Of a stretch of 64,000 bases of DNA, positions 52,138-56,263 are shown piece by piece. Position numbers and translations under genes: made by a program. The notes beneath the pieces were generated by a model. The model had not been told where the DNA came from and did no database searches. It saw only the letters and a list, made by a program, of their open reading frames with translations. Position 1 is the first letter of the stretch. Every line of letters starts with the position of its first letter. Origin of the DNA: Kiritimatiellota bacterium (GTDB lineage Bacteria > Verrucomicrobiota > Kiritimatiellia > Kiritimatiellales > Tichowtungiaceae); the NCBI GenBank assembly GCA_014381785.1, contig JACNKZ010000035.1, positions 41,361-105,360 of the forward strand, written 5' to 3'.

Positions 52138-53307
52138 CTAGCGGGGAAGTTTGATTTTCTTGCGCAGGTAGGTGGGAATATCGAGGTCTTCGCCATTCCA
52201 GATGGTTCGTTCGGCACCGCCGAATGCTTTGGAGCGCGGCTTGAGCACTCCGGCCAGCTCGCCCTGCCCGCTGATATGGCCCGTGGAGTCTTCCACTAGC
52301 GGCTCTTTCCAGGATTCAGCCGCCAGCACAATGGCCGCGAGCCGTCCGGTAAAGGCGGGGTCGGTGGCAACACCCATTTTTACCCAGCACGTTTCATTCT
52401 CCGGCGAAACGCCGTCTACAATCTGCTGCACTTCGGACAGCCGCAGGTCATCGCCGCCAGTAATGCCGACGATCATGCCGGGAGAATTTTCAAACACGGC
52501 GCCGTCTTCGGCCAGCGGATGAGAACGCAGCATTTCCACCAACTCAGCGGCGCGATCGTCGCCCGTCGCAACGGCGCAGGAGAAGCGGCAGGTTGCGTCG
52601 CAGTGACGAAGCAGTGTGTGCAGCGTTGCGAAATCGAGGTTGCAAACACCGCCGGTTTCAGTAAGCAGCCGCCAGAGGCCGACCACTCCCGCAGCCAGTG
52701 TGCGGCCGGACCGCTCAAGACTGTCTTCAAGCAGCGCATCGCCGTCCGGCTGAATACGGCTGTTGGGCATCTGAATGATGGCGTCCGCATACGCGCGCAG
52801 ACGGCGCAGGCTGTTATGCGCCTTGCCGCGCACCACGCCGCCTTCGAACTTAAAAGGGAACAGGGTGAAAAAGATGGTGTTGGCCCCGGCGTTGCGGGCC
52901 ATCCGCGCAACCACAGGAGCCGCGCCGCCGCCAAAGCCACCGCCGAGCCCGACCACAACCAGCAAAAGATCCACCCCGCTGAGCAGCGCATCAATCGGCT
53001 TGCCCGCTTTTTCGGCGCAGCGGCGGCCGGTTTCCATATCGCCGCCTGCACTCAACCCGTCGGTGACGCCCTTGCCGGCATCCAGCCGGGTTTCGATGTG
53101 GGCACAGGTCTCCAAGGTTTGGAAATCGCAGTCCATCACGGCGAATTCCATGCTGGCCGGCGCGCGCGGAGCAATCCGTGCGATGGTCGAACAACCGGCT
53201 CCGCCGAGCCCGAGAACCAGAATCCTCCGCAATCCGCGACTGGGCTGTTCAATATTCAATGTGTCAACATTCAAGATGCATGCCCTCCCCAAAGCTTGGA
53301 GAACCAC
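52138..53307 (-). CDS. ftsZ: Divergent FtsZ
   Basis: RILVLGLGGAGCSTIARI, LGGGFGGGAAPVVARMAR, CNLDFATL, C-terminal LDIPTYLRKKIKLPR; directly downstream of ftsA. The true start is uncertain. Confidence 0.85.
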   Translation of the reverse strand: MVLQALGRACILNVDTLNIEQPSRGLRRILVLGLGGAGCSTIARIAPRAPASMEFAVMDCDFQTLETCAHIETRLDAGKGVTDGLSAGGDMETGRRCAEKAGKPIDALLSGVDLLLVVVGLGGGFGGGAAPVVARMARNAGANTIFFTLFPFKFEGGVVRGKAHNSLRRLRAYADAIIQMPNSRIQPDGDALLEDSLERSGRTLAAGVVGLWRLLTETGGVCNLDFATLHTLLRHCDATCRFSCAVATGDDRAAELVEMLRSHPLAEDGAVFENSPGMIVGITGGDDLRLSEVQQIVDGVSPENETCWVKMGVATDPAFTGRLAAIVLAAESWKEPLVEDSTGHISGQGELAGVLKPRSKAFGGAERTIWNGEDLDIPTYLRKKIKLPR

Positions 53308-54500
53308 TGACGTAAGCGGGAAGCCTCTTTCGGCGCGGCGCTCTGCTGATCTGCGGCGTAGCGCACCGCGCCGATGACGGCGGCAAAACGGGCGCCCTCC
53401 TTTTTCGTGGAAACGCCGACGCAGTCATAGATCTTGCCGATCTGAGCCGGCGCATTGAATACCTGCTGCGCCAGATCAACGGCGCCATCGAGAGCCGATC
53501 CGCCGCCGGTCAGAACAACACCCGCATTGAGCACACCCGAAAGGCCGTTGTCTTCGATCTGATCCGCAATCAGACGGAAGGTTTCCTTCATCCGGGCGTT
53601 GATGATCGTGTGCAGTGTGACGGAACGAACAACACGCCCGCTGAATCCGCCTTCCGCCGGAACAGAAAACGACTGTTCGCCCGCCATGGCATTAATGACC
53701 GCGTTGCCGGATTCTTTTTTGAGCGCTTCAGCCTGCCGGCGGTTGATGTTCAGTCCGGAACAGATGTCTTCGGTTACATGGCTGCCGCCGACGGCAATGG
53801 AGCCGGCCAGCTTGACGATGCCTCCGTTATACACCACGAAATCGGTGGTTCCGCCGCCGAGATCGATGACCACCGCTCCGGCGCGTTTTTGTTCAGGGGT
53901 CAACACGGCCAGCGCGGAGCAGAAGCCGGCGAACGCCGCATCGGCGCAGGTGACCGGAACGGCCTGCAGAAGTTTTTTGAGGTTTTCAACCGTTGAGCGC
54001 CGGCCGTGAATGAGCAGCATGCCCACTTTTAAATCCTGAGCGAGCATCCCTTCGGGATTCACAATTCCGCCGCGCCCATCCACTTCGAAGGTCTGCTGAA
54101 GGGTGTGCAGGCGAATCCGGTCATCTGCCAGCGGCACCTTGCGGGCAACCTCCAGCGCATGGTCGATGTCATCGGCCGTAATCTCCCCGCCGGTCTCCTC
54201 GTATTCATTGAGAATAGGAATCCCCGCCTGATGCAGGCGGCTTTCCGCGCGGCCGCCGGATGCCGCCAAATAGATACTTTCGCCGATCGCACGGTGCGCG
54301 GTGGCTTCCGCTTCTTCAAGTGCGCGGCGCACGGCATTGAGCGCGAGTTCAAAGTCGATAATCTCACCCTTATGAACTCCGCGTGACTCGCTTTCGCCGA
54401 GGCCGGCAACCATCAGCCCGCCGTCTTCGCGCAGCTCACCCATCAGCACTTTTACGGTGGTGGTGCCAATTTCCAGAGCAGTAATGAGCGGAGCGGACAT
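53271..54500 (-). CDS. ftsA: Cell division protein FtsA
   Basis: ITALEIGTTTVKVLMGEL, VVIDLGGGTTDFVVYNGG, GVVLTGGGSALDG. Confidence 0.93.
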   Translation of the reverse strand: MSAPLITALEIGTTTVKVLMGELREDGGLMVAGLGESESRGVHKGEIIDFELALNAVRRALEEAEATAHRAIGESIYLAASGGRAESRLHQAGIPILNEYEETGGEITADDIDHALEVARKVPLADDRIRLHTLQQTFEVDGRGGIVNPEGMLAQDLKVGMLLIHGRRSTVENLKKLLQAVPVTCADAAFAGFCSALAVLTPEQKRAGAVVIDLGGGTTDFVVYNGGIVKLAGSIAVGGSHVTEDICSGLNINRRQAEALKKESGNAVINAMAGEQSFSVPAEGGFSGRVVRSVTLHTIINARMKETFRLIADQIEDNGLSGVLNAGVVLTGGGSALDGAVDLAQQVFNAPAQIGKIYDCVGVSTKKEGARFAAVIGAVRYAADQQSAAPKEASRLRQWFSKLWGGHAS

Positions 54501-54513
54501 ACGGGAAAATCCT

Positions 54514-55329
54514 TTAGTAATCAGTGGTCGGCACGTTGAGTCCGTCCGGTGTCAGGTCGACGGTTTTAATGCGGCGCCCCTGCTCACGGGCGATTTCCAT
54601 TACCCGGGCGAGACGAATCAGCTTTTCTCTAGCCGCCTGGCGGGGAAAGCGGGCATTGATGTTGCCGGTCAGCGTGGCGGTGATGTGATCCGGATAGCGC
54701 AGGTCAAACCGTTCGAACCCAATCTGACTGGAAAATCGCATGGCGTCACAGGTCGTAAGAAGTTCCAGAGCGTACTGCACCCCGGGGTCCGTGATCTGCT
54801 CTCCGGGCCGCAACTGGTCAAGCTTCACCCCTTCGATCAGCGGAAGTGCCTGCCCGGTGCGCGTGGGCGGCAGAACCACACCTTCGCGGTCGATCAGAAA
54901 CGGCACGGAGCGCCATTTCCAGCTCACCTGCGCCACCGCCGTCCGCTCGCTTACATCCACAACGAGCGTGTCGGGCAGCTTGCGCTGAATACGGACAGAC
55001 TGCACCAGCGGCACCGCTTCCAGATCCGCCTGCAGGGTATCAAAGTCGACATCAAACAGATTCACCCCGGTTTCGAGCTTGGCATATTCCATCAGCTGCG
55101 AAGAGGAAAGCCGGCCGTCGGAACGGATCAATATGTGTTTGAGCTCAAAATAGGGATTGCGGGAAAAAAACAGAGAACCGGTATAGGCCAGCGCCTGAAA
55201 AACGCCGAACAGCACAACCAAACCAAAAACAACCGTAAGAGAAATCAGGATCCCACGCCGGGCGGCCGTCTCTTTTGACGCCTTGGTTCGTGCGTGATAT
55301 CTGCGTTTGGTTCCTCGTTTAGCCGCCAT
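54514..55329 (-). CDS. ftsQ: FtsQ/DivIB-type POTRA protein
   Basis: Single TM, POTRA-like FELKHILIRSDGRLSSSQLMEY, VRIQRKLPDTLVVDVSERTAVA; between ddl and ftsA. Confidence 0.85.
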   Translation of the reverse strand: MAAKRGTKRRYHARTKASKETAARRGILISLTVVFGLVVLFGVFQALAYTGSLFFSRNPYFELKHILIRSDGRLSSSQLMEYAKLETGVNLFDVDFDTLQADLEAVPLVQSVRIQRKLPDTLVVDVSERTAVAQVSWKWRSVPFLIDREGVVLPPTRTGQALPLIEGVKLDQLRPGEQITDPGVQYALELLTTCDAMRFSSQIGFERFDLRYPDHITATLTGNINARFPRQAAREKLIRLARVMEIAREQGRRIKTVDLTPDGLNVPTTDY

Positions 55330-55363: not shown

Positions 55364-56263
55364 TTATAAGGAAGCCGTCCGCATGATTCGATCACAAAGC
55401 ACAGGAAAGTCGATTCCGGCCGCCGCCGCCGCTTTCGGAAGCAGGCTGTGGGAGGTAAAGCCGGGGATCGTGTTGAGCTCCAGAACGAACAGATCCCCCG
55501 CCGGTGTCATGCGGAAATCAACCCGCCCGAACCCGCGCGCGCCGAGTGCCTCGAAGGTCTTCCGGGCCATTGCCTGCATCTCCGCCGTCTTTTCCGGACT
55601 CAGCTCGGCAGGCACAATATAGCGCGTCGTATCCACTTCATACTTCGCGGCGTAATCATACCACTCCCCGGCGGGAAAAATTTCAACCACCGGAAGCACC
55701 TCGCTATCCACAATGCCGACCGTGAATTCGCGCCCCGGAATAAACCGCTGCACCATCGCCTCTTCGTCATGCGTCAACGCTTCAGTAAACGCCGCATCCC
55801 AATCGGACTCGTCAAAAACCAGATGACACCCAACGCTCGACCCCTCACGCGGCGGTTTCACCACTACCGGCAGCGTCAACGTACGCGCCTGACCGGCCAC
55901 CAGCGTTTCGCTCTCGGGCACCGGCACACCCGCCTTCAGCAGACACTGTTCGGTCAAAAGTTTATCAAACGCGATCCGGCTGGCTTCCACCCCGGCACCG
56001 ACATACGGAAGCTTCAGTTCCTCCAGTCGGGCCTGAGATCCGCCGTCCTCGCCGAATGTTCCGTGCAACGCGATAAAAACCGCCTCAACGCCGTTGGGAA
56101 CCGTGAAATCAGGCGCCGTGACGTCGATTTCGGTCACGTCGTAACCGGTTTCGCGCAAGCCCGCCGCAATCGCCGCGCCCGATACCAGCGAAACCTCGCG
56201 CTCGGCGGAAATTCCGCCCTTTAACACCGCAACCTGCCTGAATTGTTTAATCGCAGCCTCCAT
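55364..56263 (-). CDS. ddl: D-alanine--D-alanine ligase
   Basis: VAVLKGGISAEREVSLVSG, PLVVKPPREGSSVG-type ATP-grasp block, LELNTIPGFTSHSLLPKAA. Confidence 0.95.
   Translation of the reverse strand: MEAAIKQFRQVAVLKGGISAEREVSLVSGAAIAAGLRETGYDVTEIDVTAPDFTVPNGVEAVFIALHGTFGEDGGSQARLEELKLPYVGAGVEASRIAFDKLLTEQCLLKAGVPVPESETLVAGQARTLTLPVVVKPPREGSSVGCHLVFDESDWDAAFTEALTHDEEAMVQRFIPGREFTVGIVDSEVLPVVEIFPAGEWYDYAAKYEVDTTRYIVPAELSPEKTAEMQAMARKTFEALGARGFGRVDFRMTPAGDLFVLELNTIPGFTSHSLLPKAAAAAGIDFPVLCDRIMRTASL

Follow-up and report, generated by a model that had tools for sequence, protein, structure and literature searches.

Treadmilling of FtsZ at the expense of GTP is regarded as fundamental to how bacteria divide, and the two aspartates of the FtsZ T7 loop are held to be a universal catalytic pair. 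The T7 residues have been described as conserved across species (PMC8936486). In Staphylococcus aureus filaments, Asp210 (Asp209 in Escherichia coli numbering, which is used below for all residue positions, as assigned by alignment to E. coli FtsZ) swings and positions the attacking water, while Asp213 (Asp212) is static, shares a bridging water with the arginine-finger-like Arg143 (Arg142) and sets the environment (PMC8936486). In the same filaments, Gly108 and Thr109 (Gly107 and Thr108) in the T4/H4 region contact the gamma-phosphate mimic, and Asn44 (Asn43) binds the Mg waters (PMC8936486). In vitro, S. aureus FtsZ no longer assembles when it carries any one of the mutations D213N, R143Q or N208L (PMC8936486), and the GTPase activity left is 7% in E. 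coli D212A and about 15% in Arabidopsis FtsZ1 D275A (PMC8142252). In vivo, where the cells also carried wild-type FtsZ, E. coli FtsZ(D212A) co-expressed with FtsA formed rings and septa that were completed (PMC4383033), and Bacillus subtilis FtsZ(D213A) in merodiploid cells gave slower treadmilling and thick rings with continuing constriction (PMC8079713).

Accelerated evolution of ftsZ in Verrucomicrobia has already been published (PMC2474590). The essential FtsZ of Verrucomicrobium spinosum has been described as one of the most divergent (PMC12283558); in 2007 it was termed canonical on the basis of its T4 signature, with T7 left undiscussed (PMC1845146). No residue-level report of T7 losses in verrucomicrobial FtsZs was found in the literature searched, which for the most part excluded subscription papers.

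The window, a stretch of 64,000 nucleotides of a Kiritimatiellota genome, carries an ftsZ coding sequence on the minus strand (52138 to 53307) that encodes 389 amino acids when read from the GTG at 53307. The TTG at 53274, which would give a protein of 378 amino acids, is the more likely start, because it overlaps the stop codon of ftsA in a TTGA and is preceded by the Shine-Dalgarno-like sequence GGGAGGG. This overlap of stop and probable start (53271 to 53274) suggests translational coupling. Upstream lie ftsA (53271 to 54500; TIGR01174, 290 bits against a cut-off of 176), ftsQ (54514 to 55329; Pfam POTRA_1 and FtsQ_DivIB_C) and ddl, for D-alanine--D-alanine ligase (55364 to 56263; Pfam and NCBIfam), all on the minus strand with ftsZ last, so that the Pfam matches of the upstream genes bear out the normal ddl-ftsQ-ftsA-ftsZ order of the original prediction. 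The search for a second FtsZ proposed with that prediction was run over the whole genome (98% complete, 88 contigs) and detected no second FtsZ or tubulin that could co-polymerise, so that the gene in the window is the sole copy detected. The same genome contains two genes of the FtsW/RodA family and one FtsK gene; ZapA gave no match in it, in a search whose controls matched in just 4 of 14 genomes.

The protein passed the Pfam cut-offs for PF00091 (Tubulin; 89 bits against 33, E 6e-25) and PF12327 (FtsZ_C; 32.2 bits against 27, E 1.3e-7), and its score for the NCBIfam FtsZ equivalog TIGR00065 (179 bits, E 1.6e-52) fell below the cut-off of 295.2. It is thus too divergent to be named automatically as this equivalog, and the original prediction of a divergent FtsZ was right. 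Its sequence matches in the PDB were FtsZ, and a Foldseek search with its AlphaFold model returned FtsZ in 50 of the 50 best PDB matches listed, with a TM score by target of about 0.8; the model was of moderate quality (pLDDT 65) and was used for the fold, active-site geometry being left aside. Against the FtsZ profile, full-length FtsZs of the genus scored 484 to 517 bits, far from the TubZ-like (164 to 165 bits) and Btub-like (25 to 37 bits) sequences of relatives. An identity as TubZ, BtubA/B or another non-FtsZ tubulin was rejected on these PDB matches and profile scores. What makes the protein an FtsZ is its descent and its setting, and not a canonical catalytic signature.

Two members of the genus do encode a second, TubZ-like protein of the tubulin superfamily (L016:1495-2592 in G001 and L015:212-1342 in G006), with a GGGTGNG signature and a C-terminal LEVLGRLxKLR; in L015, a small helix-turn-helix-like ORF lies directly upstream. 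These genes, which perhaps form a plasmid or phage partition system, belong to a different family from FtsZ, and none was found in the genome of the window.

The translation (53307 to 52138, minus strand) contains the segment VGLGGGFGGGAAP, which holds the T4 loop (residues 122 to 128; 52924 to 52944). It reads GGGFGGG in place of GGGTGTG (positions 105 to 111 of E. coli FtsZ) and so lacks the tubulin signature [SAG]GGTG[SAT]G (pattern quoted in PMC1845146). The T7 loop, NLDFAT within VCNLDFATLHT (residues 223 to 228; 52624 to 52641, minus strand), keeps Asn207 and Asp209 and has Thr, encoded by ACG at 52624 to 52626, in place of Asp212; it therefore departs from the canonical NxDxxD with both aspartates. 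At the C terminus, EDLDIPTYLRKKIKLPR, the peptide LDIPTYLRKKIKLPR is intact, LDIPTYLRKK (52156 to 52185, minus strand) being presumed to bind FtsA. The original prediction had described both loop changes and the canonical C-terminal peptide correctly, and two further replacements were absent from it: Val for Arg142, the arginine-finger equivalent (52831 to 52833, minus strand; role from PMC8936486), and Asp for the Mg-water ligand Asn43 in T2 (53131 to 53133, minus strand). The altered GTP-binding loop that it described was overstated: in T4 the side chains of Thr108 and Thr/Ser110 are lost, and the glycine frame of T4, T1 (GGAG), T3, T5 (PFxFEG) and T6 (PN) are intact. Since these loops and the glycine frame are preserved, the protein probably still binds GTP. 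Its GTPase activity or polymer dynamics are plausibly unusual, as had been suggested.

Each of the other 13 genomes in the genus had an orthologue. Position 212 was Ser in 8 of the 14 FtsZs, Thr in 2, Asp in 2, Asn in 1 and Ala in 1, the aspartate thus being lost in 12, and position 142 was Val, Thr, Ala, Met or Ile and never Arg. In T4, position 108 was Phe in 13 and Leu in 1, and position 110 was Thr (7), Ser (4), Gly (2) or Ala (1). The change of Thr/Ser110 to Gly is shared within the genus with G001 alone, a single-contig genome that has the exact pair GGGFGGG and NLDFAT, and occurred in 12 of 169 FtsZs across the phylum. By contrast with 212 and 142, which are free to vary, Asn207, Asp209, Asp45, Gln47 and the T4 glycines 105, 107, 109 and 111 were found in 14 of 14 and are constrained. 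Asp43 was likewise present in 14 of 14, and in 22 of 22 FtsZs of the sister family. The C-terminal peptide followed LD[IV]P[TA][YF]xR[RWK]K in all full-length members. Pairwise dN/dS values of 0.06 to 0.18, together with the invariant Asp209 and Asn207, indicate that ftsZ is under constraint.

FtsZs were extracted from samples of the order, the class and the phylum and aligned to E. coli FtsZ, giving 169 sequences from 56 families; the genome sample was even and incomplete, and for the most divergent sequences the assigned residues hinge on the alignment. Of the 169, 24 had both T7 aspartates, 105 had Asp209 but not Asp212, 30 had Asp212 but not Asp209, and 10 had neither one; at least one was thus kept in 159 and at least one lost in 145. 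By family majority, the same states numbered 11, 28, 14 and 3, respectively. Loss of a T7 aspartate is, as judged from these sequences, not peculiar to the genome of the window, and the state with one aspartate is the commonest in the phylum. NLDFAT recurs in distant families, and outside the class the large groups f42 and f40 have T7 losses too, with loops resembling NLDFA[TSAG]LRQ in f42 and NVGLDDL or NLGLDEL in f40. In the sister family f2 (n = 22), T4 was canonical except for one GGGLASG and two GGGTASG, and T7 was mostly GLDFAC or GLDFAS, with Asn207 and Asp212 lost and Asp209 kept in all 22; Arg142 was kept in 3. On a tree of 106 representatives, built with the trait columns left out, the minimum number of changes was at least 20 at position 212, at least 15 at 209, at least 16 at 207 and at least 18 at 142, counts that are rough, because the representatives were picked to cover differing states and support is weak at many of the deep forks. 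Double losses were fewer than expected by chance in the raw counts (10 observed against 27 expected; Fisher p 1e-10); with independent pairs on the tree the comparison was not significant (about 2 against 0.1 informative pairs), and the avoidance of double losses is a lead only. Coupled loss of Asp212 and Arg142 left little sign in the raw counts, and the tree-based pair test had few cases.

Several other observations were made in the phylum. Three FtsZs of family f17 (L087, L088 and L098) have T7 loops reading PLSIQD, PLTIQD and PLALMD, with Asn207 and Asp209 gone and Asp212 kept, and Leu for the T6 Asn165, and are more extreme than the FtsZ of the window. In G025, a single-contig genome of the sister family, the FtsZ match at C1:425849-426318 runs across two frames; the gene may truly be broken there, or the frameshift may be an error. 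The near-complete genomes G017, G078, G110, G144, G215, G221, G230 and G246 gave no PF00091 match, which may reflect assembly gaps or true losses of FtsZ.

We regard it as fairly probable that this bacterium of the Kiritimatiellales (Verrucomicrobiota) divides with the protein as its one working FtsZ, that the GTPase is slowed and that this is part of a relaxation of the interfacial catalytic site throughout the phylum. The protein would bind GTP and build filaments, which its C-terminal peptide would anchor by binding FtsA. By the residue roles established in S. aureus, the mobile catalytic aspartate is kept, and the static helper, the finger and a phosphate-contacting side chain are lost. 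Thus, Asp209 would still position the attacking water in a two-subunit site reduced by the loss of Asp212, Arg142 and the Thr108 side chain, and for this reason we predict hydrolysis and treadmilling that are distinctly slower than those of E. coli FtsZ, yet present, with slow turnover. The 7 to 15% of GTPase activity left in mutants of the D212A type supports slowed over abolished hydrolysis. Against this reading, D213N, R143Q and N208L each suffice to abolish assembly of S. aureus FtsZ, and several losses together might block GTP-driven assembly outright instead of slowing it; other changes in so divergent a protein could also restore fast hydrolysis. The role in division is read from the lack of a second FtsZ in a genome that is 98% complete, from the order of the division genes and from the presence of FtsW/RodA and FtsK genes; from these data we infer a slow GTPase, slow turnover and a function in division in vivo. 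On this view, the protein would exemplify locally a relaxation found across the phylum, under which FtsZ can usually do without one T7 aspartate or the other.

A different account, which we consider unlikely, is that the active site is compensated, with full GTPase activity and other residues standing in for Asp212 and Arg142, namely a basic residue at 145 or a rearranged T7 using Ser, Thr or Cys and water. Compensating residues, which the original prediction had named as an observation that would count against it, were found to a slight extent: no acid replaces Asp212 in the protein of the window, and position 145, about one helical turn past Arg142, is the sole candidate found as a substitute for Arg142, being Lys in 13 of 14 in the genus and Arg in 1 (Phe in E. 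coli), although Lys occurs there in only 8 of 22 FtsZs of the sister family. Elsewhere in the phylum an acid appears to have shifted within T7, as in the NVGLDDL and NLGLDEL types seen in family f40, which gain Asp211; of the 10 FtsZs with double losses, 9 retain an acid at one of positions 209, 211 and 212, and just 1 of 169 has none there. The genus of the window, however, has no new acid near T7, and its position 212 varies instead of having settled on one replacement, a pattern suggestive of relaxation and not of re-engineering.

Less likely again is an FtsZ with essentially no hydrolysis, serving as a static scaffold of GTP polymer that is turned over by accessory factors or by dilution. 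Asp212, Arg142 and Thr108 are all changed, and single S. aureus mutants at the sites equivalent to the first two are severely impaired. Against a dead enzyme, the invariance of Asp209 and Asn207 in the genus would be unexpected if hydrolysis or the T7 contact were irrelevant, although it could stem from polymer contacts alone. We give very little credence to a decaying, non-essential ftsZ drifting to loss in an organism with FtsZ-independent division of the kind seen in the related phyla Planctomycetota and Chlamydiota: loss of FtsZ is known in these sister phyla, the gene evolves fast in Verrucomicrobiota (PMC2474590) and residues of T7, T4, T2 and H5 have drifted, but dN/dS is low, the open frame and C-terminal peptide are retained in the genus, V. 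spinosum ftsZ was essential by transposon sequencing (PMC12283558), and of 143 near-complete genomes sampled from the class, 139 contain FtsZ/tubulin, usually as a single copy. That the motif codons were misread or misassembled, which would have undone the original prediction, is refuted by the same motifs in G001, the family pattern in 12 further genomes and the sharing of the motif changes with other genomes of the genus.

Beyond the slowed division FtsZ proposed for the window, we tentatively suggest that the T7 aspartates are individually dispensable across Verrucomicrobiota, most lineages having a single-Asp FtsZ in which either one, and rarely both, is lost, with the finger mostly lost in the order of the window, and that the phylum divides with attenuated or differently built FtsZ GTPases. 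The census covers Verrucomicrobiota, and the comparison with other phyla rests on the FtsZs of the PDB and the statement of conservation in PMC8936486. The 145 of 169 FtsZs that have lost at least one T7 aspartate are proteins that arose in nature, presumably work and have badly impaired catalytic sites, and the need of division for GTPase activity thereby becomes testable in organisms that evolved so, as opposed to sick point mutants. As a caution, the T4 signature alone is insufficient to call a verrucomicrobial FtsZ canonical.

The FtsZ of the window resembles those of E. coli, B. subtilis and S. aureus in its fold, loops T1, T3, T5 and T6, Asp209 and Asn207, gene order and FtsA-binding C-terminal peptide, and differs from them in Asp212 to Thr, Arg142 to Val, Thr108 to Phe, Thr110 to Gly and Asn43 to Asp. 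Family f42 includes T7 loops with the same six residues, NLDFAT, but keeps Arg142 and Thr108 (26 of 26), both lost in the genus of the window. The laboratory mutants FtsZ(D212A), FtsZ(D213A) and FtsZ1(D275A) lack the same catalytic aspartate; unlike them, studied in cells alongside the wild type, the protein of the window is natural, is the sole copy, is under purifying selection and carries further active-site changes. Beta-tubulin, whose T7 reads GxxNxDxxK, likewise has no second acidic catalytic residue there; it has, however, a catalytic alpha partner, whereas the genome of the window has a single FtsZ gene, so that every interface is altered.
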